A stretch of 64,000 nucleotides of DNA from Microcella alkaliphila. GTDB taxonomy: Bacteria > Actinomycetota > Actinomycetes > Actinomycetales > Microbacteriaceae. Numbering within the stretch: the stretch's first letter is position 1; every line of letters begins with the position of its first letter. Under the pieces are notes generated by a model. It made no database searches. It was given only the letters and a program-made list of their open reading frames with translations, and was not told where the DNA came from. A program made the position numbers and the translations under genes. The DNA lies in the NCBI RefSeq assembly GCF_002355395.1, contig NZ_AP017315.1, forward strand, positions 124,001-188,000, given 5' to 3'. Below, one piece after another: positions 51,071-64,000 of the stretch.

Positions 51071-51396
51071 AGCTCACAAGCGTAGGGCCGGGAACCGTGA
51101 GCCTCCTGCATCGACCGGGTGAGGGAAAGCTCGGCCTGTAGGTTCCCGCTCGAGATGGCGGAGGAGGCCGGGAATCCACGGCACTTGGCAGCGATTTCGA
51201 GCCGGAGATTCCACGCGAAATGGCGGATTCCTCCGAAAGACCCCTACAGCTGTTCCAGCTCGCCGCGGCTATGCCCGTTCTGGCGGGGATGGTCGGGATC
51301 GCACCGAACACCGCCATCTGCTGGCGACGCTGACCTCACGCAGTGGGTCCGCTTATATCGCCCAGCGTTGATCCAGGCAGCACCCGGGCATTCTGA
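51071..51396. other. Intergenic stretch at core/accessory junction
   Basis: No gene supported. CTGTAGG (51136-51142) and CCTACAG (51243-51249) form a 7-base inverted repeat around 100 bases that also carry near-direct repeats (CGAGATGGCGGA, CGAAATGGCGGA) and inner GGAATC/GATTCC. This may be a small relic of a mobile element, but no transposase or target duplication was found. Confidence 0.35.
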
Positions 51397-51726
51397 TCGC
51401 GGAACAGCCACCGGGGCACGAGCCACAAAGTAGGCGACCATGCCAAGCAACTCGACGAGGGATTGGATGACGATCACGATCGCCGCGATCTCCCATCCCG
51501 CGGGCAGCGAGAGCGCAAGCGGGAGCACCACGAACGAGTTCCGAGTCCCGAAACTGAACGCGAGAGTGCAGCCCTGCACGGCAGGCAGCCGCAGGGTGAC
51601 GGCCGTGAGCTTGGCGAGAGCAGCGGCGAGGACCAAGAACACCACCGCGGCGAGCACGACGACCGGGAGGACCTGCAGAGCGTCGCGCACGGCGCCGACC
51701 TGGGCGGCGGCGATCAGGAACACCAT
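51397..51726 (-). pseudogene. Remnant of an arsenite/bile-acid-symporter-type permease
   Basis: About 110 residues match the C-terminal third of bacterial arsenic-resistance permeases of the bile acid:sodium symporter fold: MVFLIAAAQVGAVRDALQVLP is cut here to FLIAAAQVGAV, and LAFSFGTRNSFVVLPLALSLPAGWE carries the conserved FGTRNSFVVLPLAL; SLVELLGMVAYF follows. The normal protein is over 300 residues, so the N-terminal two thirds are gone. The surrounding frame 51244-51834 adds unrelated ends. No arsR or arsC is nearby. Confidence 0.7.
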
Positions 51727-51839
51727 GGCAGGAGCACCTGACGACCAGCGCGAGCACCGATGAGGCCTACCGCTAACGTCGTGCGCCTGAGTCTCGTTGA
51801 CGGGTGACTTGCCGGGGATGAGCACCGGGAGCATCCCCG

Positions 51840-52076
51840 CTATGGGACGTGCAGGTCTTCGCTGGGGGATGCGCAGCCGACTGAGGGCGCACAGTATGGG
51901 ATGGGCACCAACACCCGAAAGATGGACGTCGTGCTGATCGAGGTTTGGCCGCTCGCTTCACGAAGGTTGGTCGGTGGAGCGAGGCTGGCGACAAGCAGTG
52001 CAGCGGTCACTGCCGAAGCCACGAGGACGCTCGCGAGGCTGTCATTTCCACGACTCGTTTGCTGGGTCGATCTCAT
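51840..52076 (-). CDS. 78-residue signal-anchored small protein coupled to GMC oxidoreductase
   Basis: The ATG at 52076 overlaps the preceding GMC oxidoreductase stop (ATGA), the coupling used elsewhere in this operon. The peptide has a hydrophobic helix (LASVLVASAVTAALLVASLA, residues ~14-33), then about 45 polar residues with two Cys (YCAPSVGC). It could be a secreted or anchored small subunit, or the N-terminal stub of a longer protein cut at the junction. No family recognised. Confidence 0.5.
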   Translation of the reverse strand: MRSTQQTSRGNDSLASVLVASAVTAALLVASLAPPTNLREASGQTSISTTSIFRVLVPIPYCAPSVGCASPSEDLHVP

Positions 52077-53611
52077 GTGGATCCGATCCTCTCCGCGACT
52101 CGGAGCGCATTCGCCGCGATGGTGAGCGCCGGATTGAGGGCAGCCGAGGATGGGAAGAAGGAGCTGTCGACGACCCAGGTGTTCTCGACCTCGTGGAGTC
52201 TGCAGTTGGGGTCTAGCACGCTCGTTGAGGGCTCGACCCCGGCGACGATGGTGCCGCACTGATGTGAGTTGGTCTCGATCCCCATGCGCTGTGTCAGAAC
52301 GATCGGATAGCCGGCTCGGCGGACGGCTTGCCTCATCCGCCGCACGAGTTCGCGGTGCGGCTTCATGTTCGTCGTCTGCCAGCGCACGCGAACATCCCCG
52401 TCCGTGGTGACGATGCGGTTCTCGGGTCTAGGGAGATCCTCGGTGGTGAGGTAGAAGTCGACGCTGTGGTCCGCGATCCAGCGCAGCACAAAGTTCGGCA
52501 CCCAACGCCGGGCGCTCTTGAGCATCGGGGCGCGCAGCTTCCCGAGCATCTGCACGTTGCCGAGAGGGAACCGGTTGCCTCGGGCGCTCTTTCCACCCTC
52601 GTACCAGTCGTTCAGTCCGAGCGTCTTCTGCCATTGTGTGGAGTTCGTCCGGCGTGGGTCGATCGCCATGAAGAATGTGCTGTTGTGCACCATGTAGTTC
52701 CGACCGACCAGCCCTGTCGCGTTGCCCAGTCCGTGCGGGTGATGTGGTGAGGTGGAACGCAGCAGCAATGCGGCCGAGTTGACGGCGCCGGCAGAGACGA
52801 CGAACTTCCTGGCCGTGATTCTCAACGGTTCGCCGTCGCGTTCGGCGAGGGCTGCGATCACCGTCCGGCCGTCGTCGGAGACCTCCAGCCTGGTCACGAC
52901 CGTGCGGGTGAGCAGTTCGACGTTTCCGGTGTCCAGCGCGGGTTGCAGCGCACGGTTCTCGGCGTCAGACTTCGCGCCCGTCTCGCACGGTGCCCCGTCG
53001 CACCCGGTACACGCGGCCCTTTCCTCCGCGGTGTCCACGTCCAGCGCCGTCGCCATGTGGAAGGGGTGAAGGCCTTGCCGCCGGAAGTCCGCAGCGAGCC
53101 GCTCGATGGTCGGCTCGTGCTCGAGTGGCGGGTAGGTGTAGTCGCGTGAGTGCGGCGGCTCAGTGGGGTCCTCACCGTACTGCCCATGGGCGTGATACAG
53201 GGTCTCCGCGGCCGAGTAGTGCGGCTCGATCTCGTCATAGGAGAACGGCCACGCGGGCGACACCCCGTCGTGGTGGGGCGTGGACTCGAAGTCGCTCCTG
53301 CGGAAACGGGGAAGGCACGCGCCGTACACTTTCGTGTTGCCGCCGACCCAGTAGTACACACCGGGCCGGAAGCGGCGGCCAGTGCTGTCGTCGATCCAGT
53401 CCTCTGCGTTCTTGTAGCGGCCGCGCACGTGCACCTCGACAGGGTCGGAGTTCTCGGCCTCGCGCGGGAGATGGTCGCCGCGCTCGACCACGAGCACGCG
53501 TTCGGAGCCCTCTCGCAGCCCCCAGGCGAGTGTCGAGCCGCCCATGCCGGAGCCGATGATCAGAATGTCGGTGCTCACGACCCGAGGTGTGTCGATCGCA
53601 GATGCGGTCAT
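52073..53611 (-). CDS. GMC-family FAD oxidoreductase (sugar/glycoside oxidase-like)
   Basis: A 512-residue GMC flavoprotein: FAD-binding IIGSGMGGSTLAWGL at residues ~14-28, VVERGDHLPREAEN, then YWVGGNTKVYGACLPRF, and the C-terminal active-site pair His in NSHQCGT and Asn in NPALTIAANALR. A Cys cluster CTGCDGAPCETGAKSDAEN in the middle is typical of a subgroup near pyranose oxidases, C-glycoside 3-oxidases and gluconate-type dehydrogenases. Likely oxidises a sugar ring hydroxyl or polyol. ATG 53611 overlaps the GH88 stop. Confidence 0.82.
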   Translation of the reverse strand: MTASAIDTPRVVSTDILIIGSGMGGSTLAWGLREGSERVLVVERGDHLPREAENSDPVEVHVRGRYKNAEDWIDDSTGRRFRPGVYYWVGGNTKVYGACLPRFRRSDFESTPHHDGVSPAWPFSYDEIEPHYSAAETLYHAHGQYGEDPTEPPHSRDYTYPPLEHEPTIERLAADFRRQGLHPFHMATALDVDTAEERAACTGCDGAPCETGAKSDAENRALQPALDTGNVELLTRTVVTRLEVSDDGRTVIAALAERDGEPLRITARKFVVSAGAVNSAALLLRSTSPHHPHGLGNATGLVGRNYMVHNSTFFMAIDPRRTNSTQWQKTLGLNDWYEGGKSARGNRFPLGNVQMLGKLRAPMLKSARRWVPNFVLRWIADHSVDFYLTTEDLPRPENRIVTTDGDVRVRWQTTNMKPHRELVRRMRQAVRRAGYPIVLTQRMGIETNSHQCGTIVAGVEPSTSVLDPNCRLHEVENTWVVDSSFFPSSAALNPALTIAANALRVAERIGST

Positions 53612-54786
53612 GAGCCGGTCTCCTGGAACTGCTGCATCTGGTCGATGGTGTCGAGGAACCAGTAGTCTCCCCACATGACCGACTCGTCAACCCCGAGCCC
53701 TTTGCCCTCGTGGTAGGTCCCGTGCTTGACGATGCCCTCCCAGTCCTCTTCCGGTCGGGCGAGGAAGTGCGGGCTCGCGAGGCGTTCCACCGTGCGCACC
53801 GCATGATCGGCATAGACCCTCGCACGCAACGGGTCGCCAACCAATCCGGCGAGCTGCCACAGGCCACCTGCAGCGGCCGCGGCTGCGGATGACTCGTAGG
53901 AGTGGACGGGACTTGGCTCTTCCCAGTCGTTGGGGGGGATGAGCTCGCCACGAGTGTTGTCGATGTAGAAGTCAGCCGTCGCGATCGCCGTGGCCAGAAA
54001 CCTTCGATCGCCGGTGAACCGGTAGACGGTTCCGAAACCGTAGAGCGCCCATGCCTGACCGCGAGCCCATGAGCCGTCGTCGGAGAAGCCCTGCTGCGTG
54101 GTCTGGCGGAGGAACGCACCCGTCTCGAGGTCGAACATCCCCTCATGCGACGCCGATCCGTCGCCTCGGATCAGATAGCGGCGCGTCGTCAGGCAATGCT
54201 CGATCGCAACCGCGGCAAGGTCCGTGTCGCCCGTCTGCTGCGCGGCGTACAGCGCCATGTGGATGTTCATCATGATGTCGATGAAGAGACTGTCCGGCTG
54301 CCGGAAGCTCGGCATGTAGCCGCCAACCGTGCGGTGTCTACTCGCGGTCGTCCGGCCTGCCTCGATCAGCACATCTCGCTTCGCGGGGTCACCGGACGCC
54401 TCGAACCAGCGTCGATACGTCGACCAGAACAGGAACCCGAGATCGTGCACGGTGTCGTCAGTCTTCCGATGCTCGATGAGTTCGGAGTAGTGCTCGGCCG
54501 CGGTGTGAAAGCTGTCCCGACCTGCCGGTGCCCGTCTGGACAGGAGCCAGAGTTCTCCGCCGAGGAACCCTTCGCACCAGTTGGTCCACGCCTCGCCGTC
54601 GATGACCCATCGTCCGCCCTCGGTGTAGAGCGGGAAATGATCAGGATGCTGTGAGATGAGCTTGTTCACCTTCGCAGTAGCGGTCGCCCACACGCGAGTG
54701 GCAACCGAGTCGAAGGACTCGGGGAGCCGGTAGTCGTTCGGGAGGACCAGCGGAAGGACGGTGGGAAGGACGAGGGGACTGCTCAT
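53608..54786 (-). CDS. GH88-like unsaturated glucuronyl hydrolase
   Basis: A 392-residue alpha6/alpha6-barrel protein. WTNWCEGFLGGELWLLSR, HDLGFLFW and SLFIDIMMNIHMALYA resemble GH88 (and GH105); Asp in HDLGF and in FIDIMMN fit the two catalytic Asp known in Bacillus unsaturated glucuronyl hydrolase. Such enzymes hydrate the double bond of unsaturated uronic acids and so open the glycosidic bond. No signal peptide, so it acts on imported fragments. Coupled by ATGA to ALDH before and GMC after. Confidence 0.8.
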   Translation of the reverse strand: MSSPLVLPTVLPLVLPNDYRLPESFDSVATRVWATATAKVNKLISQHPDHFPLYTEGGRWVIDGEAWTNWCEGFLGGELWLLSRRAPAGRDSFHTAAEHYSELIEHRKTDDTVHDLGFLFWSTYRRWFEASGDPAKRDVLIEAGRTTASRHRTVGGYMPSFRQPDSLFIDIMMNIHMALYAAQQTGDTDLAAVAIEHCLTTRRYLIRGDGSASHEGMFDLETGAFLRQTTQQGFSDDGSWARGQAWALYGFGTVYRFTGDRRFLATAIATADFYIDNTRGELIPPNDWEEPSPVHSYESSAAAAAAGGLWQLAGLVGDPLRARVYADHAVRTVERLASPHFLARPEEDWEGIVKHGTYHEGKGLGVDESVMWGDYWFLDTIDQMQQFQETGS

Positions 54787-56309
54787 CGTGCTCCCTTTCG
54801 CTCCGCGTCCGGCGCTGACACCCATCGGGTGTCACGTGGCCCGACCTGGAGCTGGATGGTCTTGAGCTCGCTGAACTCGGCGAGCGCCTGGCGTCCGAGC
54901 TCGCGGCCGATCCCGCTCTCGCCGTACCCGCCGAACGGGATCTCGGGGTAGCCGTCCATCCAGCGGTTGACCCAGACGGTTCCAGCGCGCAGATCGCGGG
55001 CCGCGATGAGCGCCTCGTTGATGTCGTTGCTCCAGATTCCCGCGGACAGGCCGAACGACGTGCTGTTGGCGATGCGGATGGCGTCGGAGAGCTCATCGAA
55101 GGGCAGCACCGACAGAACGGGTCCGAAGATCTCCTCCCGGGCGATGGACATGTCGGGTGTGACGTCCGCGAAGACGGTCGGCTGGTAGAACCGCCCCGCG
55201 TCGCTGCGCGCGGGTGCGCCGCCAGTGACCAGGCGGGCTCCGGCGGCGACGCCTTCCGAGACGTAGCGCTGGATGACGCCGAACTGCTCCTCGCTCACGA
55301 TCGCACCGATCTGCGTCGCGCTGTCCAGCGGGTCGCCCAGTGGCACGTGGGCCGCGCGCTCCGCGACCGCGGCGGCGAACTCGTCTGCGATCGAGCGGTG
55401 GACGATGAGGCGGCTTCCCGAGTTGCAGCACTGGCCGACGTTGAAGTATCCACCGAAAACGGCGGCATCCACGGCGGCGGGCCAGTCGCAGTCCGCCGAG
55501 ATGATCTGCGGGTTCTTGCCGCCGAGCTCCAGCTCCACCTTCTTCAGGCTCTGTCCGGCGCTCGCGGCGAGGCTGCGTCCGACCGCTGTCGATCCAGTGA
55601 AGCTGAGCATGTCGATGCCGGGGTGGTCGACGATCGCCTGTCCCACGCGGCGGTTCCCGGTGACCACGTTCACCACACCGGGCGGGAATCCGGCTTCGCG
55701 GACGAGCTCGGCGAGCATGACCGTTGTCGAGGAGGTGCTCTCACTCGGCTTGATCACCGCCGTATTGCCTGCAGCCAACGCGAACGGGAGCTTCTGGCTG
55801 ACGATGAGCAGCGGGAAGTTCCACGGCGTGATCATGCCGATGACGCCGATCGGCTCATGGACGACCAGTGCGAAGGTCTCGGCGCCCAGGCCGTTGTGCG
55901 CATCGCCGTAGTTGTGCCGGGCCAGACTCGCGGAGTACGCCCACAGCTCCGCGGTCGACCGCACCTCGTTGCGCGATTGGGTGATCGGCTTTCCGGACTC
56001 GAGCGTCTCGGCGAGGGCAAGCTTCTCCAGGTCCCGGACGATCAGCTCCGACACCCGTTGCAGGAGCGCGGACCGCTGTGCCCCCGAGACGGTGCGCCAT
56101 CCGGCCTCCAACGCCCGGCGCGCCGACGTCACGGCGCGATCGACATCCTCGCGGTCTCCCCGGGGAAGGGTGGACACCTCGATGTCGTGGGCGGGGCTCG
56201 AGCGCGTGAACGTCTCACCGCTCGCAGCGGGAACGCTCTCGCCGTCGATGACCATCTCGAGTGTGGTCGCCTCGATCTCCGACAGCGTGTAGTTCTTGGC
56301 CTGGTTCAT
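54783..56309 (-). CDS. NAD(P)-dependent aldehyde dehydrogenase
   Basis: A 508-residue ALDH: TPWNFPLLI binds cofactor, LELGGKNPQII holds the general-base Glu and GQCCNSGSRLIV the catalytic Cys; EEIFGPVLSVLPF and PFGGYGESGIGRELG follow. Resembles betaine/phenylacetaldehyde-type ALDHs. In the operon it would oxidise the aldehyde made by a GMC enzyme or by an aldehyde-forming lyase step. ATG 56309 has AGAAGGAG. Confidence 0.92.
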   Translation of the reverse strand: MNQAKNYTLSEIEATTLEMVIDGESVPAASGETFTRSSPAHDIEVSTLPRGDREDVDRAVTSARRALEAGWRTVSGAQRSALLQRVSELIVRDLEKLALAETLESGKPITQSRNEVRSTAELWAYSASLARHNYGDAHNGLGAETFALVVHEPIGVIGMITPWNFPLLIVSQKLPFALAAGNTAVIKPSESTSSTTVMLAELVREAGFPPGVVNVVTGNRRVGQAIVDHPGIDMLSFTGSTAVGRSLAASAGQSLKKVELELGGKNPQIISADCDWPAAVDAAVFGGYFNVGQCCNSGSRLIVHRSIADEFAAAVAERAAHVPLGDPLDSATQIGAIVSEEQFGVIQRYVSEGVAAGARLVTGGAPARSDAGRFYQPTVFADVTPDMSIAREEIFGPVLSVLPFDELSDAIRIANSTSFGLSAGIWSNDINEALIAARDLRAGTVWVNRWMDGYPEIPFGGYGESGIGRELGRQALAEFSELKTIQLQVGPRDTRWVSAPDAERKGAR

Positions 56310-56346
56310 GATCTCTCCTTCTGCATGTCGCTCTGGTCGCGTCGGC

Positions 56347-57147
56347 TCACGAATCGGTGAACCGAGCGGCGCGCTTCTCCCGGAACGCGTTGGTTCCTTC
56401 GATGAGGTCGTCCGTTCCGGCCGCGACCCCGGAGGCGAGCGCTTCGAGTACCGAGCTCGCGGCCCCGTCCGCGGCAGCGTCGATGATCTGCTTGGCGAGC
56501 TGGATCGCCACCGGTGCGGACAGCAGAATCTCGGACACCAGGCGGGAGGTCTCGTCGTCGATCTCGGCCGCATCAACGACAAGGTTCGCAACGCCCCACT
56601 GTTGAGCCTCGTCAGCAGTGAGCTGGCGGCGGGTGAACACGAGCTCTTTCGCGCGGGCACGCCCCGCCAGCTCGGTGAGCCGCTCCGTGCCACCCCACCC
56701 CGGGACCGTGCCCAGGCCCCCCTCGGGCAGCGCGACCTTCGCGTGCTGAGCGACGATGCGAAGGTCGCACGCCAGGGCGAGCTCGAAGCCTCCGCCCACC
56801 GCGAGGCCGTCCACGACCGCGATGGTGGGCTGCCGCAGCGATGCCAGCCGAGCGAACGCCCGGTGACCGGTGGCGACCCATTCCCGCCACATCTGGACAG
56901 CGCTGATCCCCGCAAAGTGGGTGATGTCCGCCCCGACACAGAACACTCGCGTGCCAGCCGTCCGCACGAGCACGACCCGCGCGGGGGATCGGTCGATCTC
57001 TTCGCACACCCACTCCAGCTGCCGCAGCATGTCAAGGGTGAGCGCGTTGAGCTTATCCGCCCGATCTATCAGGATGGTCGCCACGGCCCCGCCGCGCGAG
57101 ACGGCGACGCTCACCCTCCCGGAGGCATCGTTCATCGTGGCCGACAT
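56347..57147 (-). CDS. Enoyl-CoA hydratase/isomerase family protein
   Basis: A 266-residue crotonase-fold enzyme. Oxyanion hole in VFCVGADITHFAG and GLAVGGGFELALACD; both catalytic Glu of true hydratases are present (GGGFELA; ALPEGGLGTVPGWGGTERL). It could hydrate an enoyl-CoA, or act as a hydroxycinnamoyl-CoA hydratase-lyase that yields an aromatic aldehyde plus acetyl-CoA; the ALDH next to it would suit that. ATG 57147 overlaps the GMC stop (TGATG); GTG 57150 is possible. Confidence 0.85.
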   Translation of the reverse strand: MSATMNDASGRVSVAVSRGGAVATILIDRADKLNALTLDMLRQLEWVCEEIDRSPARVVLVRTAGTRVFCVGADITHFAGISAVQMWREWVATGHRAFARLASLRQPTIAVVDGLAVGGGFELALACDLRIVAQHAKVALPEGGLGTVPGWGGTERLTELAGRARAKELVFTRRQLTADEAQQWGVANLVVDAAEIDDETSRLVSEILLSAPVAIQLAKQIIDAAADGAASSVLEALASGVAAGTDDLIEGTNAFREKRAARFTDS

Positions 57148-58766
57148 CACACGTACTCGGCTGCGGGAATGGCGGATGAGGCCCCATGCCGGATGTGATG
57201 TGCGCCCTTCTCACCGATCATGATGGACGTGGCCTGGGTGTTCCCGCTGATCAGCGTCGGCATGATCGACGCGTCGACGACCCTCAGCCCTTCGACGCCG
57301 CGTACGCGCAGCTGCTGGTCGACGACAGCCATCTCGTCCTCGCCCATCTTGCACGATCCGACCGGGTGGTAATCCGTCTTGGACCATTGCTTGACGTACT
57401 CGCGAATCTCCTTGTCGGTGCGGACGTCCTTGCCGGGCATGTGCTCCTTCTTGATGTAAGGCGCGTACGCCTTCGTCGCGAGCATCTCTCGGCCCCACTT
57501 GAAGCCCTCCAGCGAGATCTTCCAGTCGTACGGATCCGTGAGGAACGCCGGGTCGATCGCCGGCGGCACCGACGGGTCGGATGAGCGCAACGTGACGGAT
57601 CCGATGCTCTTCGGTCGCAGGTTGCAGGTGTTGATGGTCATCCCATGCCCCTTGACGCGGAGCCGACCGTGGTCGATCACGTACGCGGGAAGGCAGTGCA
57701 TCTGGATGTCCGGGGCTTCGACAGCCTCACTGCTGCGTACGAACATCCCCGCCTCGCACACCGATGCGGTGATGGGGCCGGTGCGGTATAGCAGGTACTG
57801 GATCATCGAGAGCGCCGCGGGCACCGGGCGATCCGAACGGTTGTAGCTGACATCGGTCGTCTCGGCGGTGAGGTACACGTCCATGTGGTCCTGGAAGTTC
57901 TTGCCCACCCCCGGGAGATCGTGCACGACGGGGACGCCGAGCGCGCGCAGCTCGTCACCAGGGCCGATCCCGGACAGCAGCAGCAGCCGCGGGGTGTTGA
58001 CCGCGCCCCCCGAGAGGACGACCTCCCTGTTCGCCCGGGCTGTGGCCGGCTCGCCGTCGTGCGTGTACTCGATCCCGGTGGCTCGCCCGTTCTCGACGAT
58101 GACCTTGGTGGCCAGTGCGTGGGTGTGGATGGTGAGGTTGCGACGGTCGCGGGCCGAACGCAGGTACGCGGTGGCGGCGCTCTCGCGGCGCGCTCGCTTC
58201 TGCGTGACGTCGTAGTAGCCGACGCCGTCCTGGACCGCGCCGTTGAAGTCGGGGGTGAACGGCAGTCCCAGCTCTTGAGCGGCACGGACGAATGCCTTGC
58301 TCAGCTCGTTGTGCGAGACCTGCTCGGTGACGTTCATCGCGCCGTTCGAGCTGTGATACTCGTCGTTGAGGCGCTCGTTGTGCTCCGCGCGTCGGAAGAA
58401 CGGGAGGACCTGTTCGAATCCCCACTCGTGGTTGCCGAGCTCTGCCCACCGATCGTAGTCGTGCCGGTTGCCGCGGATGTAGATCATGGCGTTGATCGAG
58501 GTGCTGCCGCCGAGGAGCCGTCCCTGCGGGTACCACATCTCCCGGTTGTTCAGCTGCGCCTGCGGGACGGTCTCATACCCCCAGTTCACCTTCGGCCCGG
58601 TCAGCTTCGTGAAGCCGACCGGGATGTGCACCAGGAAGGAGGAGTCGCGGCCACCCGCTTCCAGAAGTAGAACGGAGACATCGGGGTCCTCGGTGAGGCG
58701 GTGTGCGACGGCGCAGCCGGCTGCGCCGGCGCCGACCACGATGTAGTCGTAGGTGTTGCTGGTCAT
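57147..58766 (-). CDS. GMC-family alcohol/choline dehydrogenase-like flavoprotein
   Basis: A 539-residue GMC oxidoreductase of the BetA/AlkJ type: YIVVGAGAAGCAVAHRL (FAD) at the start, GRLLGGSTSINAMIYIRG (signature 1), GGAVNTPRLLLLSGIGP (signature 2), and catalytic His in DYHPVGSCKMG with Asn in SGNTQATSIMIGEK. Different branch from the 52073-53611 protein. Probably oxidises a primary alcohol to an aldehyde. Start ATG 58766 (the frame extends without homology to 58832). Confidence 0.9.
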   Translation of the reverse strand: MTSNTYDYIVVGAGAAGCAVAHRLTEDPDVSVLLLEAGGRDSSFLVHIPVGFTKLTGPKVNWGYETVPQAQLNNREMWYPQGRLLGGSTSINAMIYIRGNRHDYDRWAELGNHEWGFEQVLPFFRRAEHNERLNDEYHSSNGAMNVTEQVSHNELSKAFVRAAQELGLPFTPDFNGAVQDGVGYYDVTQKRARRESAATAYLRSARDRRNLTIHTHALATKVIVENGRATGIEYTHDGEPATARANREVVLSGGAVNTPRLLLLSGIGPGDELRALGVPVVHDLPGVGKNFQDHMDVYLTAETTDVSYNRSDRPVPAALSMIQYLLYRTGPITASVCEAGMFVRSSEAVEAPDIQMHCLPAYVIDHGRLRVKGHGMTINTCNLRPKSIGSVTLRSSDPSVPPAIDPAFLTDPYDWKISLEGFKWGREMLATKAYAPYIKKEHMPGKDVRTDKEIREYVKQWSKTDYHPVGSCKMGEDEMAVVDQQLRVRGVEGLRVVDASIMPTLISGNTQATSIMIGEKGAHHIRHGASSAIPAAEYV

Positions 58767-58803
58767 CTGATCGTCCTTGAGTCTGTGGGTGTTCGAGTGC
58801 CGC

Positions 58804-60435
58804 TCAGGCGGCCCGAGGCGTGTCCAGCGCAATGATCCGGCTCGGAGGCGGCAGAAGCGGGAGGGTGAGCTGGAGCGGCCGGTCGAGGAACAAGGCGTGG
58901 TCCATGGTGCGCAGATCGTCCGCGATGTGCAGGGTGAAGTCGGAGCGATCGAGGATGTCTCTCTGTACGTCCACGCCAGGAGCGACCTCGGTGACCACGA
59001 GTCCGTGCTTGGTCAGCTCGAGGACGCAGCGCTCCGTGATGTATGTGACTCGCTGCCCCCGCTCGAGCGCCTTCGGACCGGAGAAGGTGACGGCGGCGAC
59101 GTTCTTCACGAGCTTGGTGTGTGGGCCGTCGCTGCGGATGTCGAGCCTTCCCTCATCGAATTCGATGTCACGCCGGCCGGCGGTGAACGAACCGATGAAG
59201 GCGATCGCGGGGGCCGAGGAGGTGATGTCCGCGAAGCCGCCGACACCGGCCGTGACGTGGCGCTTCTTCGGTAGATAGTGCACGTTCACGCTTCCTCGCT
59301 CGTCGATCTCGAGGAAGGAGAGCATCGATCGATGGAATCCGCCGCCCTGCAGCAGCGTGAACTGGTCGATGCTCGGCATGATCGCGTCCGGGTTCTGCGC
59401 ACATCCGAACGCGAAATCGAGGAGTGGGACGCCTCCGACGGCGCCCTGCTCGATGACCCAGCTGACCTCCTGGGCGAGGCCCTCCTCCACGAGGATGTGC
59501 GGCACCAGTGCGGAGACGCCGAAACCGAGGTTGACGATCTCTCCCGTCTGGAGCTCCTGCGCAGCACGGCGGGCGATAACCTTCTCGAGCGAGAAGGGGA
59601 CAGGCGGCAGTTGCGTGAGGGGCTGGCGCAGCTGTCCAGAGATCGCCGGGTCATACAGAGTGTTGGTGGTTTGAAGCTGATCCGGGTCGATCACGATGGC
59701 ATCCACGAGGATGCCGGGAACGCGGACATCTTGGGGCGCCTGACTGTACGCCTGCGCGATCCGTTTCACCTGGGCGATGACAATGCCGCCGTTGTTGTGC
59801 GCCGCGTAGGCCTGATCCAATGCGCCGAGGGGTGAGCCTTCCTCTTCGAAGGTGAGATTGCCGAACTCGTCGGCCGTCGTCGCCCTGATGATCGCGACGT
59901 TCGGGACGACGGCGGGGAAGAAGAGCCACTCGGCACCGTCCAGTTCGACCGTTCGAACGTGCTCGGCAGGTGTGGAGGCGTTCATCCTGCCGCCCTGCTG
60001 TCGTGGGTCGATAAAGGTGTCGCTGCCCACCTGAGTGAACACGCCAGGCTGGTGGGCGGCCGCTGCACGGTGCATCTGGAACAGCACGCCGGAGGGGAAG
60101 TTGTAGGCGTGAACCTGATTGTTCTCGATCATCTGCCAGATCTTGGGCGGCTCGAAGGACGACGGCCCGGACGGATACGAGCCTGCGATGACTTTCGCGA
60201 GAAGCCCGGGCATGGAGAGATGGTCTATGCCCTTGACTCCGTACATGTCGCCGGCGGCGATCGGGTGCACGGCAGTCAGCCTGCGGGGTGCTTCGGTCTC
60301 GGCGAACCGTTGACCGATGCCGGCTAGCACAGCGTCGGGGCAGCCCAGCCCGCTGGAGGAACTGACGGTGATGACATCGCCGTCGCGGATGAGATCGGCG
60401 GCGTCCCGTGCGGTGAGGATCGTGGCTTTCTGCAT
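58804..60435 (-). CDS. Family I acyl-CoA:acetate/propionate CoA-transferase, fused subunits
   Basis: A 543-residue protein joining the A and B halves. SSSGLGCPDAVLAGIGQRF and GDMYGVKGIDHLS are typical of the first half; the second has GFGVSALVPHILVEEG and the catalytic Glu in VIEQGAVGGVPLL. It moves CoA from acetyl- or propionyl-CoA to a carboxylic acid without ATP use. Probably activates the acid formed in this pathway. ATG 60435, 9 bases after the Gfo/Idh stop. Confidence 0.88.
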   Translation of the reverse strand: MQKATILTARDAADLIRDGDVITVSSSSGLGCPDAVLAGIGQRFAETEAPRRLTAVHPIAAGDMYGVKGIDHLSMPGLLAKVIAGSYPSGPSSFEPPKIWQMIENNQVHAYNFPSGVLFQMHRAAAAHQPGVFTQVGSDTFIDPRQQGGRMNASTPAEHVRTVELDGAEWLFFPAVVPNVAIIRATTADEFGNLTFEEEGSPLGALDQAYAAHNNGGIVIAQVKRIAQAYSQAPQDVRVPGILVDAIVIDPDQLQTTNTLYDPAISGQLRQPLTQLPPVPFSLEKVIARRAAQELQTGEIVNLGFGVSALVPHILVEEGLAQEVSWVIEQGAVGGVPLLDFAFGCAQNPDAIMPSIDQFTLLQGGGFHRSMLSFLEIDERGSVNVHYLPKKRHVTAGVGGFADITSSAPAIAFIGSFTAGRRDIEFDEGRLDIRSDGPHTKLVKNVAAVTFSGPKALERGQRVTYITERCVLELTKHGLVVTEVAPGVDVQRDILDRSDFTLHIADDLRTMDHALFLDRPLQLTLPLLPPPSRIIALDTPRAA

Positions 60436-60444
60436 GTGGGTCTC

Positions 60445-61455
60445 CTAGTCCATTCCGACCATGCGGCCGGTGCGTGCCGACTCCTGGGCGGCGAGCGCGA
60501 CGCGCAAGGCCGCCAACCCGTCCTCACCGGAGGCGGTCGGCTGGCCATGTCCCGCGATCGCGGCGGTGAACGCGTCGATGATGATCTCGTACAGATCTCG
60601 AGACGTGTCGACGGGGATAAGCTCCACTCCCGTTGCGGTCGTCAGCGTGACCGTGCCGTGGGTGTCTTGCGTCATGGCGTCGCTGATGTGGATCGAGCCG
60701 AGCGTGCCGTGGATCGTGAGTGAAGTGCGGTCGAACTCGACGGTGAACGCGTCGTGCGTCTGGGCCAGGATGCGCTCTCCTGCGGATCCTTCGTATTCGA
60801 TGACCGTCATCACGGCGTCTTCCGCACCGGCGTTCCACTGTCCTTGGTGCGCGCTGAGCGCGGCGACGCGTCGTGGCCGGCCGAGGAGGGGGTTGAGGAC
60901 GGAGGCGTCGTGGCAGGTGATGTCCGCAATCACGCCGCTGCCGGGCGCCGCCGACTCGACGCGCCAGCCGCGAAGACGTTCAGGAAGCAGGACGGCGTGA
61001 TGCACCCGCGCAGACAGCACCGTGCCGATCCGGCCCGATCGCACCAGATCCCGGGCTGCCGCATGCAGTGGGCTGCCCGGCAGATGATGGTTGGCCGCGA
61101 GCACGAGTCCGCGCTCCGCGGCGGTCTCGATCATCTCGCGTGCATCGCGGATGGTGATCGCCAACGGCTTCTCGCAGAGCACGTGTTTGCCTGCGGCAAG
61201 CGCCGCCATCGATTGCGGGTGGTGAAGGTCGTTGGTCGTGGAGATGTACACGGCGTCGATCTCGGCCGCGAGCAGCGCAGGGAGATCCGACGTTCCCGCC
61301 GGGATCCCGTTCGCGTGAGCATAGGTCGCCGCACGATCGGCCGACGAGCTATGGACGATCTCGACCGCGCCGCCGCAGGCGCGGATGGCTCCGATCACTC
61401 GCGTCTGTGCGATGTCGCTGGTGCCGATAAGACCCCAACGCAGGCCGCGGCTCAT
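60445..61455 (-). CDS. Gfo/Idh/MocA-family NAD(P)-dependent dehydrogenase
   Basis: A 336-residue oxidoreductase: RWGLIGTSDIAQTRVIGAI binds the dinucleotide, YISTTNDLHHPQSMAALAAGKHVLCEKPLA is cut here to the motif HVLCEKPLA with the catalytic Lys, and GGSDIGDHCxD-like GVIADITCHDASVLNPLLG follows. These enzymes oxidise or reduce sugar and inositol hydroxyls, and some work on 3-keto-glycosides. ATG 61455 overlaps the LacI stop (ATGA). Confidence 0.86.
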   Translation of the reverse strand: MSRGLRWGLIGTSDIAQTRVIGAIRACGGAVEIVHSSSADRAATYAHANGIPAGTSDLPALLAAEIDAVYISTTNDLHHPQSMAALAAGKHVLCEKPLAITIRDAREMIETAAERGLVLAANHHLPGSPLHAAARDLVRSGRIGTVLSARVHHAVLLPERLRGWRVESAAPGSGVIADITCHDASVLNPLLGRPRRVAALSAHQGQWNAGAEDAVMTVIEYEGSAGERILAQTHDAFTVEFDRTSLTIHGTLGSIHISDAMTQDTHGTVTLTTATGVELIPVDTSRDLYEIIIDAFTAAIAGHGQPTASGEDGLAALRVALAAQESARTGRMVGMD

Positions 61456-62486
61456 CGCGCCACCGCGATTCCGCGCGGGCGCCACAGTGCGGTCGATGCG
61501 CGGACCTTCAACGTCGGTTCGATGAGGACACGGCGCGGTGGTTCGTCCCCATCCTGCAAACGGGCGAGCAGCAACTCTGAGGCCTTTCTGCCGATGCTTG
61601 CCGCGTGCGTGGCAACGGATGTCAGCGGTGGGTACTGGAGCGCGGCCAGTGGTGCGTCGTCGAAGCTGGCGACCGACACCGCGGACCCCGGCTCGAGGTT
61701 CCGCCGCCTCAGCTCGCCGTATACACCCTGTGCGACCGCGTCGCTGTAGCAGATCACACTGTCCGGAAGGGTGCCCCGGTCGAGGAACTCCCCGAGACCT
61801 CGGGCGCCGTCGTCTGGGATGTTCAGCGTCGACACCGAGTCGGCGGGGTCGAATCGAACCTGTGTCCCTGCGAGTCCGCTCACCAGCCCTTGCAGGCGCT
61901 CCCGGCGTGCCGACGATTCGGTCGGGCCCCCGATGAGGACCGCGGAACCGCTGCCCAACGATGCGATGTGCGCGGCGAGGTTCTCACCGGCGGCTCGGTT
62001 GTCGGGGCCGACGTAGTCGAGATCATCCGTGAAGTAGCGCGAGAACTGGACGATCGGCACCTTCGTCGTCCAGACGAGCCTGCCCACGCTGTCGCGAGTG
62101 GACCCGATCGAGGGAAGCAGCAGGATACCGTCGACCTGTCGCTGGATCATGGCCTCGATCTGCTCGCGCTGACGATCGACGCTGTCACGGTTGTATCCGA
62201 CGAAGAGGGTGTAGCCGGCATCGTGCACAGCCTCCTCGACTGCCATGGTGAGCTCGGCGAAATATGGATTGCGGATGTCCGTGGCGATCAGGCCGAGCGT
62301 CATCGACCGGCTCTGCCGCATGTTCGCTGCCTGCCGGTTGTACACATACCCCAATTCGGACATCGCCTGCTCGACTCGAAGTCGCGTGGCCTCCGAGATC
62401 CGTGAGCTTCCCCGCAGCACGAGTGACGCAGTAGATCGAGACACTCCAGCGCGTTCACTCACGTCGGTCAGCGTCGTTCTGCTCAC
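61452..62486 (-). CDS. LacI-family transcriptional regulator
   Basis: A 344-residue LacI protein: helix-turn-helix LTDVSERAGVSRSTASLVLRG with hinge-helix YVYNRQAANMRQSRS, then a periplasmic-binding-protein-like sensor (GLIATDIRNPYFAEL; SVASFDDAPLAALQYPPLTSV). Ligand probably the sugar or an intermediate. GTG 62486 is the start; upstream frame is not homologous. First gene of the nine-gene minus-strand operon and divergent from the sugar-binding protein, with repeated operator-like elements between. Confidence 0.9.
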   Translation of the reverse strand: MSRTTLTDVSERAGVSRSTASLVLRGSSRISEATRLRVEQAMSELGYVYNRQAANMRQSRSMTLGLIATDIRNPYFAELTMAVEEAVHDAGYTLFVGYNRDSVDRQREQIEAMIQRQVDGILLLPSIGSTRDSVGRLVWTTKVPIVQFSRYFTDDLDYVGPDNRAAGENLAAHIASLGSGSAVLIGGPTESSARRERLQGLVSGLAGTQVRFDPADSVSTLNIPDDGARGLGEFLDRGTLPDSVICYSDAVAQGVYGELRRRNLEPGSAVSVASFDDAPLAALQYPPLTSVATHAASIGRKASELLLARLQDGDEPPRRVLIEPTLKVRASTALWRPRGIAVAR

Positions 62487-62531
62487 GGTTCCACCGTCCT
62501 TGGTTTGAACGAGATCGATAGTTGGAGTGTA

Positions 62532-62542
62532 ATCTAGTAGAT
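62532..62542. promoter_or_regulatory. Operator-like element 1 (ATCTAGTAGAT)
   Basis: ATCTAGTAGAT is a perfect 11-base palindrome about a central G. It lies between a possible minus-strand -35 TTGGTG (62553-62548) and -10 TACACT (62531-62526) of the LacI operon (spacer 16), a good place for autorepression. Confidence 0.65.
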
Positions 62543-62552
62543 CGAAACACCA

Positions 62553-62563
62553 ACGGCTAGATT
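62553..62563. promoter_or_regulatory. Operator-like element 2 (half site)
   Basis: Minus-strand AATCTAGCCGT shares the AATCTAG half of element 1, 21 bases away (two helical turns, centre to centre). Degenerate right half. Confidence 0.45.
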
Positions 62564-62598
62564 GGCGAAAACTGTTGCGTTTCCGCCGTTTCGATGAC

Positions 62599-62610
62599 AA
62601 TCTAGCAGAC
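62599..62610. promoter_or_regulatory. Operator-like element 3
   Basis: AATCTAGCAGAC matches element 1 in nine of twelve to ten of twelve bases. Lies upstream of the sugar-binding protein gene. Confidence 0.5.
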
Positions 62611-62656
62611 AGAACCGATACGCGGGGCAGTACATTCGGACCAATATGCGTGATCG

Positions 62657-62667
62657 ATCTACTAAAT
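62657..62667. promoter_or_regulatory. Operator-like element 4
   Basis: ATCTACTAAAT is element 1 in the opposite orientation (ATTTAGTAGAT) with one mismatch. It is 61 bases before the sugar-binding protein ATG, about where a promoter or leader would be. Confidence 0.5.
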
Positions 62668-62727
62668 CACCAGGTGCGAGAGTCCTCAGTCGCCTCAGTG
62701 TCACCTGCACTCAAAGGAGAGAAACTC

Positions 62728-64000
62728 ATGCACATCAACCGGAAGGCAACCGCAGCAGTCGCCCTCGGATCCGCCGCGCTGCTGGTCGCCGCCCTCACCG
62801 GCTGCGCGGCCAACAACCCCGACGACACGGGCGGCGGTGACAATACGCTCGAGATCACCTCCTGGTGGACCTCTGGGTCCGAAGCCGACGCGCTCAACGT
62901 GCTCATCGACGCGGTGAAGGCGAAGGATCCGACGCTCAACGTCGAGAACGCGGCCGTCTCAGGGGGTGGCGGCGCCAACGCCCAACAGGCTCTCGCCGCC
63001 CGCCTCCAAGCTGGCAATCCGCCCGACGCCTGGCAGCTTCACCCCGCCGGCCAGATGGAGAGCTACGTCGCCGGCGGCCAGCTGGGCGACGTGACCGAGC
63101 TCTGGGAGTCCAACGGCTGGGAGGCCCTGGTCCCCGCTGACGTCGCTGCCGTGCAGCAAGTGGACGGCCGGTACTACACCGTCCCGATCGGCGTCCACCG
63201 CGGCAACGTGCTCTGGACGAACCCCGCTGTTCTCGAACAGGCCGGAGTGACGCTCGAAGCCGGAGGCACACTCGACGAGCTGCTCGCCGACCTGCAGACG
63301 ATTCAGGACAGCGGAGTCACCCCGGTCTGCCTCGGCGACAAGGACGTCTTCGCCTCGGCGCAGTTGCTCGAGGCAGCCCTCATCTCTCGGCTGGGAGCTG
63401 ACAACTGGAACGCCCTCTGGACCAACGAGTACTCGTTCGACTCCCCCGAGGTCGTGCAGGCGCTCGATGATTACGCGACGCTGCTGGCCCTGTCGAACCC
63501 GGACCATTCCGCGCTCACCTGGGATGAGGCCTCGAAGAAGCTGGCCGCCGGTGAGTGCGCCGTGAACCTCATGGGCGACTGGGCATACGGAGAGCTGATC
63601 AACGCGGGCTTCGAGCCGGAGGTCGACTTCGGGTGGGTGACGTTCCCCGGCGAGACGGACATCTTCGACTACGTCGGCGACGGCTTCTCCATCGCAGCCA
63701 CGAACGTGCCGAACCCCGAGGCCGCGCAGCTGTGGCTCGAGACCCTGATGGACCCCGAGGTCCAGACTGCCTTCGCCGCCAAGAAGGGCTCGATCCCGGC
63801 GATGACGACCGCGGACGTCTCGTCGCTCTCCGGATACCAGCAAGGGGCAGCAGCGAGCTTCGCGACCGCGGCCATCGTGTCATCGATCGCACACGCGCAG
63901 GCATCCACCGGCGAGGTCGCGCAGATCTTCGCCGACGCAGTGACGACGTTCAACGGCAACGGTAACGCCGACGCATTCATCGCGTCGATGCTCGGCGCCC
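62728..64000 (+). CDS. Sugar ABC transporter substrate-binding lipoprotein, 3' end outside window
   Basis: At least 424 residues of a family 1 extracellular solute-binding protein. The signal peptide ends with lipobox LTGC (Cys near 26); ITSWWTSGSEADAL, GGGGANAQQALAARLQAGNPPDAWQ and DYVGDGFSIAA match glucose/mannose-type binding proteins (GtsA/ThuE-like). ATG 62728 with AAAGGAG ribosome site. Permease genes are presumably beyond the window. It supplies the substrate to the divergent catabolic operon. Confidence 0.92.
   Translation, partial: MHINRKATAAVALGSAALLVAALTGCAANNPDDTGGGDNTLEITSWWTSGSEADALNVLIDAVKAKDPTLNVENAAVSGGGGANAQQALAARLQAGNPPDAWQLHPAGQMESYVAGGQLGDVTELWESNGWEALVPADVAAVQQVDGRYYTVPIGVHRGNVLWTNPAVLEQAGVTLEAGGTLDELLADLQTIQDSGVTPVCLGDKDVFASAQLLEAALISRLGADNWNALWTNEYSFDSPEVVQALDDYATLLALSNPDHSALTWDEASKKLAAGECAVNLMGDWAYGELINAGFEPEVDFGWVTFPGETDIFDYVGDGFSIAATNVPNPEAAQLWLETLMDPEVQTAFAAKKGSIPAMTTADVSSLSGYQQGAAASFATAAIVSSIAHAQASTGEVAQIFADAVTTFNGNGNADAFIASMLGA

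Follow-up and report, generated by a model that had tools for sequence, protein, structure and literature searches.

What pathway would require a glycoside hydrolase of family 88 (GH88) to be encoded together with a coenzyme A (CoA)-transferase, a crotonase, and enzymes that oxidize alcohols and aldehydes is the question raised by an operon of Microcella alkaliphila. The operon lies within a stretch of 64,000 nucleotides, hereafter called the window, which corresponds to C1:124001-188000 of a single-contig 2.70-Mb genome (GCF_002355395.1, NZ_AP017315.1). Gene coordinates refer to the window and include the stop codon, and coordinates above 64000 continue its numbering. An original prediction, made from the letters of the window, assigned the operon to catabolism of a glycoside or glucuronide of an alcohol or hydroxycinnamyl compound. 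The reading that we favor instead, with a confidence slightly short of even, is that the operon makes the substrate of its GH88 enzyme through a lyase-free, CoA-dependent route that would open a hexopyranoside or similar cyclic sugar. We infer each enzymatic step of this route from protein families, conserved catalytic residues, and recurring gene sets.

The operon comprises eight convincing genes, all on the minus strand, that extend over 52073-62486. The first encodes a LacI-family regulator (61452-62486; PF00532, 89.6 bits; PF00356, 60.4 bits), for which a GTG start at 62486 is likely, and it shares an ATGA overlap with the gene for a Gfo/Idh/MocA oxidoreductase (Gfo) of uncertain role (60445-61455; PF01408, 80.9 bits). 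These are followed by a family I CoA-transferase that resembles YdiF and FadX and has Glu329 as its predicted catalytic residue (58804-60435; PF01144, 99.7 bits), a GMC oxidoreductase of the choline-dehydrogenase/alcohol-oxidase type (GMC1; 57147-58766; NF002550, 623 bits against a cut-off of 605), the crotonase (56347-57147; PF00378, 154 bits), an aldehyde dehydrogenase (ALDH; 54783-56309; PF00171, 559.9 bits), and the GH88 protein, which resembles unsaturated uronyl hydrolases (53608-54786; PF07470, 35-36.9 bits against a cut-off of 26.6). The last gene encodes a second GMC protein (GMC2; 52073-53611), which by profile and predicted fold resembles the catalytic subunits of fructose dehydrogenase and flavin adenine dinucleotide (FAD)-dependent glucose dehydrogenase and whose role is uncertain. 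Four ATGA overlaps, one TGATG overlap, and gaps of 9, 37, and 37 bases separate the eight genes, so the gene calls match the list, order, and tight junctions that had been predicted, and the view of one transcription unit with sugar uptake next door and control by LacI, as judged from position, also stands. The predicted divergent sugar-binding protein is likewise present, as a solute-binding protein of an ATP-binding cassette (ABC) sugar importer that starts at 62728 on the plus strand and runs past the window end at 64000 (62728-64017). Outside the window, reading on past 64000 as had been recommended, we found two permeases (64091-65101 and 65107-65997), a PfkB-type kinase nearest to kinases of 2-keto-3-deoxygluconate (KDG) and 2-keto-3-deoxygalactonate (66033-66980), and an aldolase of the type that cleaves 2-keto-3-deoxy-6-phosphogluconate (KDPG; 66977-67636), the latter two assigned by NCBIfam. 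No palindromic operator for LacI was detected by a simple script, either in the divergent gap of 241 bases or in four corresponding Arthrobacter gaps.

GH88 enzymes require a C4=C5 double bond beside the C6 carboxylate of their substrate. The CoA thioester of a sugar oxidized at C6 has H5 in the alpha position and the 4-OH in the beta position, and a crotonase can therefore in principle make that bond. In the route that we propose, the ABC importer would take in a hexopyranoside, or a similar cyclic sugar compound, with free 4-OH and 6-OH groups. GMC1 would oxidize the C6 hydroxyl to an aldehyde, which ALDH would turn into a carboxylate, and the CoA-transferase would then form a uronyl-CoA thioester, acidifying H5. 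The crotonase would act as a uronyl-CoA 4,5-dehydratase that removes water across C5-C4, and syn elimination would suit the gluco or manno arrangement. The CoA-transferase would next take CoA off the unsaturated product and load it onto a new substrate molecule, such that neither a thioesterase nor a ligase would be needed. Hydration of the resulting 4,5-unsaturated uronide by GH88 would open the ring and release any aglycone with no need for a polysaccharide lyase, and the keto-deoxy acid would proceed to KDG, or a stereoisomer, and then to KDG kinase and KDPG aldolase. Gfo and GMC2 would be accessory, perhaps for a carbonyl reduction and a re-oxidation that precede KDG.

The catalytic residues are consistent with these assignments; they were counted across the length-filtered best match of each related locus plus the window protein. 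The CoA-transferase matches the structure of YdiF (PDB 2ahu, 386.5 bits), and its E329 is kept in 77 of 77 rows. For the crotonase, the closest solved relative is 3-hydroxypropionyl-CoA dehydratase (5zai, 182.6 bits), and both E122 (58 of 59 rows) and E142 (59 of 59) are retained, which we take to be the counterparts of the catalytic glutamate pair of the rat enzyme. A tryptophan, W151, also occurs in 58 of 59 rows, at a position that is occupied by Tyr and Phe in the two closest solved relatives, and it is our guess that it stacks against the sugar. The GH88 protein aligns with the unsaturated glucuronyl hydrolase (UGL) structure 1vd5 at 158 bits; D115, D170, and R242 are kept in all 17 operon rows, and these three residues, along with H214 and W70, are invariant in an alignment of seven sequences. 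D115, D170, H214, and W70 align with D88, D149, H193, and W42 of Bacillus UGL, and Asp88, Asp149, His193, and the stacking Trp42 are among the functional residues described for that enzyme (PMC4528949). GMC1 has PDB 9lq0, 8b7s, and 8rpg as structural relatives. GMC2 keeps H450 and N493 in 49 of 49 rows, and its predicted fold is nearest to 8jej and 8grj/6a2u, with which the sequence profile agrees. We also considered GMC2 as a C-glycoside or pyranose oxidase and rejected this assignment, as the C-glycoside oxidase 7dve was found only through a C-terminal motif and fructose and glucose dehydrogenases score far higher.

These features of the crotonase also bear on the hydroxycinnamyl compound and on the hydratase-lyase step that had been predicted. 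The enzyme keeps both glutamates of hydratases and dehydratases, its nearest relatives are 3-hydroxypropionyl-CoA dehydratase and generic hydratases, and no hydroxycinnamoyl-CoA hydratase-lyase model appears among the best 25 of its 73 NCBIfam matches. Furthermore, the CoA-transferase, crotonase, and ALDH recur beside GH88, KDG kinase, and aldolase, and they do so with different alcohol dehydrogenases, a pattern more in keeping with a single route for the sugar than with separate handling of a sugar and an unrelated aglycone. We therefore rejected the hydroxycinnamyl or feruloyl reading; a hydroxycinnamyl aglycone is probably not what the alcohol and CoA genes act on.

To place the operon among its relatives, genomes were scanned with the CoA-transferase, which returned 123 confirmed relatives, and 80 loci were kept. 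Because the open reading frame (ORF) caller relies on third-codon-position bias and can miss genes, presence was scored by tblastn of all operon proteins (thresholds of 30-35% identity and half the query length); contig ends and the limits of the fetched stretches cut several loci. Crotonase was found in 70 of the 80 loci, ALDH in 54, Gfo in 49, GMC2 in 47, and GH88 in 17, with GMC1 undercounted. All 17 loci with GH88 also encode crotonase and ALDH, and they include Gfo in 15 cases, GMC2 in 14, the KDPG-type aldolase Eda in 11, and the KDG kinase KdgK in 9. At equal thresholds, neither Eda nor the kinase was detected within the flanks of the 63 loci without GH88, and the kinase result is valid only for those flanks and thresholds because a KdgK-like kinase lies further downstream in two alphaproteobacterial loci (L111, L117) and the kinase of one more GH88-free locus (L064) groups with KdgK. 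In eight Arthrobacter and Pseudarthrobacter loci the whole layout recurs at 48-80% identity, including the divergent importer-kinase-aldolase module that adjoins the operon, with a fused Gluconate_2-dh3/GMC protein in the place of GMC1. In one genome (G839), an operon without GH88 (CoA-transferase, 71% identity) lies on one contig, and a GH88 gene (63%) with a LacI neighbor lies on another. Chance assembly had been named as one outcome that would undo the original prediction; with eight loci sharing the layout, GH88, crotonase, and ALDH occurring together in 17 of 80, and a divergent version in Embleya, that objection fails, and the operon is confirmed as more than a chance assembly. A search for the gene order in other Microbacteriaceae had been suggested; among the 249 genomes of this family that were searched, GH88 relatives at E<=1e-60 are confined to 2, namely the genome analyzed here and G069. 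The four genomes of the same genus in that sample contain no GH88 relative at E<=1e-20.

Units that combine GH88 with CoA genes also appear elsewhere, built from different parts. Several genes in these and other loci were named by eye, with no family call: the iron alcohol dehydrogenase of L130, CaiB in L150, L159, and L190, the metallo-beta-lactamase-fold and epimerase-like genes of L190, the Embleya binding protein and permease, aldo-keto reductases, transporters of the major facilitator superfamily and of the tripartite ATP-independent periplasmic (TRAP) type, TnsB, dnaB, and purB. Embleya sp. (L275), from a divergent lineage, has a co-oriented ten-gene unit that encodes a binding-protein-like protein, an ABC ATPase, a permease-like protein, ALDH (45% identity), CoA-transferase, crotonase, GH88 with its residues kept, Eda (31%), KdgK (34%), and GMC1 (52%). 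Its CoA-transferase and GH88 are 63% and 56% identical to those of a locus in G069 (L130), and its crotonase is 50% identical to that of a second G069 locus (L150). L130 itself encodes GH88 (46% identity), CoA-transferase (40%), crotonase (37%), ALDH (45%), and an apparent iron alcohol dehydrogenase, and neither L130 nor the Embleya unit has a match to Gfo or GMC2. In L150, a GH88-like gene lies 5 bases from the gene for a CaiB-type transferase, followed by ALDH, crotonase, GMC, and sugar permeases; the CaiB-type protein matches annotated CaiB proteins of the Rhodococcus plasmid pDK3 (L274), where two CaiB genes flank an acyl-CoA dehydrogenase gene, a Zn dehydrogenase and GH88 follow, and ALDH is divergent. 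L190 has a CaiB-type transferase, crotonase, two more genes, and GH88/105 in one same-strand run with a divergent sugar importer. Neither an alcohol nor an aldehyde dehydrogenase was named there, and this unit would start from a uronide. In L159, CaiB, crotonase, and GH88/105 lie near one another, with CaiB on the other strand. The units thus differ in alcohol dehydrogenase (GMC1, the gluconate 2-dehydrogenase type of GMC, or apparently Fe- or Zn-dependent enzymes) and in CoA-transferase (family I or III), which is expected if chemistry rather than descent binds them together. Somewhat more tentatively than the route itself, we suggest that a lyase-independent uronyl-CoA route came together on more than one occasion, with varying alcohol dehydrogenases and CoA-transferases, and that a second, GH88-free branch with a DUF993 aldolase, a short-chain dehydrogenase/reductase (SDR), and glycerate kinase acts on a free sugar or uronate.

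Several observations weigh against the lyase-free route. The first is that 63 of the 80 loci have no GH88 gene in their flanks. In alphaproteobacteria, the typical run consists of Gfo (in some cases with LacI), CoA-transferase, crotonase, ALDH, four ABC genes, GMC2, often an SDR, and GMC1, with DUF993, glycerate kinase, and Dabb genes added in some loci. Among 22 tested genomes with GH88-free operons (15 alphaproteobacterial, 7 others), PF07470 exceeded its cut-off in 4, all alphaproteobacterial, and one of those four matches lies beside the operon; the 11 alphaproteobacterial genomes with no match above cut-off are to be read with the insensitivity of this model here, as it gives the window GH88 itself a score of 35 bits, and a locus below the threshold aligns with 32% identity over 347 amino acids. 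The GH88-free alphaproteobacterial operons must use another last step or another substrate. We read this branch as starting from free sugars or uronates; alternatively, GH88 may be optional and the proposed route wrong. In addition, GMC2 and Gfo have no firm place in the route, an IclR gene on the opposite strand separates GH88 from the other genes in L130, and the GH88 relatives of L150 (7163-8350) and L274 (8956-10080), which lie beside CaiB-type transferases, lack the equivalents of H87, D88, and H193 and keep D149, R221, and W225, such that the reaction of this GH88 branch must differ. Finally, PF04962, which represents KduI, has no match in the Microcella genome, and the best relative of KduD is an SDR far from the operon (G000:C1:2467409-2468149) that scores 289.1 bits against a cut-off of 338.85. 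Where a unit has neither KduI nor KduD, it may act on a non-reducing ring such as a 1,5-anhydrosugar, the opening of which would yield a 2-keto-3-deoxy acid directly. The Microcella genome also has a second sugar-acid cluster (L172, G000:C1:2459000-2476000) with KdgK (36%), Eda (38%), a KduD-like SDR, an ALDH-like gene, and, by eye, TRAP transporter genes.

The strongest competing explanation, which we consider unlikely, holds that the operon has two branches, in which GH88 splits an imported unsaturated uronide, freeing an alcohol that GMC1, ALDH, CoA-transferase, and crotonase break down to an acyl-CoA for housekeeping beta-oxidation. GH88 normally acts on lyase products and the other enzymes are the usual tools of side-chain degradation, which would suit this division of labor, as would the pairing of GH88 with acyl-CoA dehydrogenase on the Rhodococcus plasmid. 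However, the lyase family Hepar_II_III_C (PF07940) has no match in the Microcella genome, in a search that covered this one lyase family. Related operons keep the CoA-transferase, crotonase, and ALDH in the absence of GH88, which indicates that these enzymes are not tied to an aglycone released by GH88. Furthermore, the sets recur with KDG genes, and no thiolase-like gene is found among their nameable neighbors.

Classical GH88 loci provided a comparison for this pairing. Across twelve such loci of Microbacteriaceae, an SDR is nearby in 10 and a KDG kinase in 8, and none has a CoA-transferase (family I or III), crotonase, or ALDH. Four plasmid GH88 loci without CoA genes adjoin either an annotated heparinase II/III (L276, L279) or a transporter only (L277, L278). 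In an order-wide sample of 396 genomes with 75 GH88/105 places, from which 59 stretches were fetched, CoA-transferase and crotonase occur together in 2 of 59, compared with 2 of 14 stretches of the family set and 0 of 34 GH31 controls. These stretch counts alone are too small to prove an association, which is a further weakness of the lyase-free route, and the weight of the argument falls on operon structure and recurrence.

A second alternative, slightly less probable again, is that the CoA-transferase and crotonase act on an open chain and convert an aldonate to its 2-keto-3-deoxy form by C2-C3 dehydration, with GH88 serving a neighboring step. It draws on a group of loci that we call type B (Rhodococcus, Subtercola, Arthrobacter mobilis, and relatives of Burkholderia), which pair the CoA-transferase and crotonase with transporters that by eye are of the organic-acid type, together with a varying mix of DUF993, SDR, and in some cases a TIM-barrel protein; GMC and ALDH are absent from the unit. 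DUF993, which recurs with CoA-transferase and crotonase, was examined in two loci (L118:2109-3272; L029:15832-16989). It has the fold of dihydrodipicolinate synthase/N-acetylneuraminate lyase aldolases with an invariant lysine in a GIK motif, features that would suit an aldolase of keto-deoxy acids, and the L118 protein is 57% identical to an unannotated Sinorhizobium meliloti structure (4dnh). No paper that names this family was found among the open papers searched. An open-chain reaction would leave unexplained both the 17 GH88 loci and the GH88 gene that G839 carries in trans. The weakest alternative is an oxidative route through 3-keto glycosides, with oxidation of the sugar by GMC2, reduction of the resulting product by Gfo, and 3-keto intermediates as substrates of GH88 or the crotonase. 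It is improbable despite the sugar-dehydrogenase-like character of GMC2 and the frequency of both genes among the 80 loci, as Gfo reaches 32-36 bits in NCBIfam equivalog models for glycoside or disaccharide 3-dehydrogenases with cut-offs of 650-750, GMC2 reaches 47 bits in the pyranose oxidase model with a cut-off of 544.9, the CoA genes are given no task, and the Embleya and L130 units show no match to either protein.

The lyase-free, CoA-dependent route resembles several known systems in part. The unsaturated uronate pathway (lyase, GH88/GH105, KduI, KduD, KdgK, Eda) shares with the operon GH88 with its catalytic residues, the importer, the KDG kinase, and the KDPG-type aldolase, whereas the operon adds the alcohol oxidase, ALDH, CoA-transferase, and crotonase in a genome without the KduI and Hepar_II_III_C matches. 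In carnitine metabolism, CaiB is described as exchanging CoA between substrate and product while CaiD serves as the hydratase (PMC2131755). The proposed chemistry is alike, with CoA put on, water removed, and CoA returned, and L150 even has a CaiB-type transferase; in contrast, the window transferase is of family I and YdiF-like, the proposed substrate is a sugar acid, and GH88 follows. The window enzyme shares its family and active-site glutamate with YdiF/FadX acyl-CoA:acetate CoA-transferases, but it scores 320 bits against a FadX cut-off of 750 and stands in an operon context of sugar uptake. GMC1 shares a subfamily with choline dehydrogenase-like alcohol oxidases (BetA, the chloramphenicol-inactivating enzyme 8b7s, and alcohol oxidase 8rpg), but it falls below the BetA equivalog model (534 of 732 bits) and its operon has no betaine genes. 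The catalytic subunits of fructose dehydrogenase and Burkholderia FAD glucose dehydrogenase are nearest to GMC2, but identity is 21-22% and the operon has no cytochrome or small-subunit gene. No described pathway with this gene set, or with uronyl-CoA, was found in the open papers searched, which exclude most subscription papers, so that this absence carries little weight; the original prediction had likewise connected the exact set with no described pathway. If the proposed route is correct, CoA chemistry known from fatty acid and amino acid metabolism would also cleave sugars, which would represent a new chemical class of glycoside breakdown, and GH88 enzymes would gain a source of substrate that is independent of lyases. 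The gene set of Arthrobacter, other Actinobacteria, and many alphaproteobacteria would thereby acquire functions, and DUF993 would have a likely role as an aldolase.

The operon is carried by a Tn7-like element of 37,485 bp, which extends from 51137 through the window end at 64000 to 88621. Its left end (51132-51146) consists of a CGGCC duplication (51132-51136) and the terminal repeat TGTAGGTTCC (51137-51146); this repeat, which starts with TGT, and its inverted copy form the two ends, and both are flanked by the 5-bp CGGCC. The last base of the element lies 10 bp after the stop codon of dnaB (88632-90083, minus strand, named by eye), and dnaB may be the attachment site. The element encodes relatives of TnsA (PF08722, 31.6 bits), TniB (PF05621, 29.9 bits), TniQ (PF06527, 67.2 bits), and, by eye, a TnsB-like protein. 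In a congener whose PurB is 98% identical, the chromosome joins 51125 directly to 88630, and the insert is missing in all five congeners for which the stretch was fetched. The element ends and the empty site indicate that the operon was acquired as cargo, such that a whole catabolic pathway is carried by a Tn7-like transposon. The operon is a real, mobile, and recurrent catabolic unit with a sporadic distribution. A Tn7-like insertion at dnaB with TniQ was not described in the open papers searched.

Two ORFs lie between the operon and the left end of the element. The one of 78 codons (51840-52076, minus strand), which had been predicted as the ninth gene of the operon, is probably not a gene: searches of Pfam and NCBIfam returned no family for it, the top hit in the compared loci has an E value of 0.79, and its weak codon bias (GC of 0.59/0.59/0.69 by codon position) differs from the third-position GC of 0.79-0.88 in the eight genes. 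The other, of 196 codons (51244-51834, minus strand), has gene-like codon bias and is transporter-like by eye with no Pfam match; lying at the left end of the element, this ORF is probably a remnant. Elsewhere within the element, a second catabolic cluster (L004:5688-12096, where L004 coordinates equal window coordinates minus 62000) encodes IclR, an iron alcohol dehydrogenase, an aquaglyceroporin (MIP), a Zn alcohol dehydrogenase, a small protein, and a GMC protein. Our guess is that this cluster may act on a polyol, for example glycerol, and this would agree with an operon substrate that resembles glucosylglycerol. At the right end of the element (L005:2844-6509), a YobI-like P-loop NTPase of 1221 amino acids (PF20693, 346 bits) is possibly cargo of the defense type.

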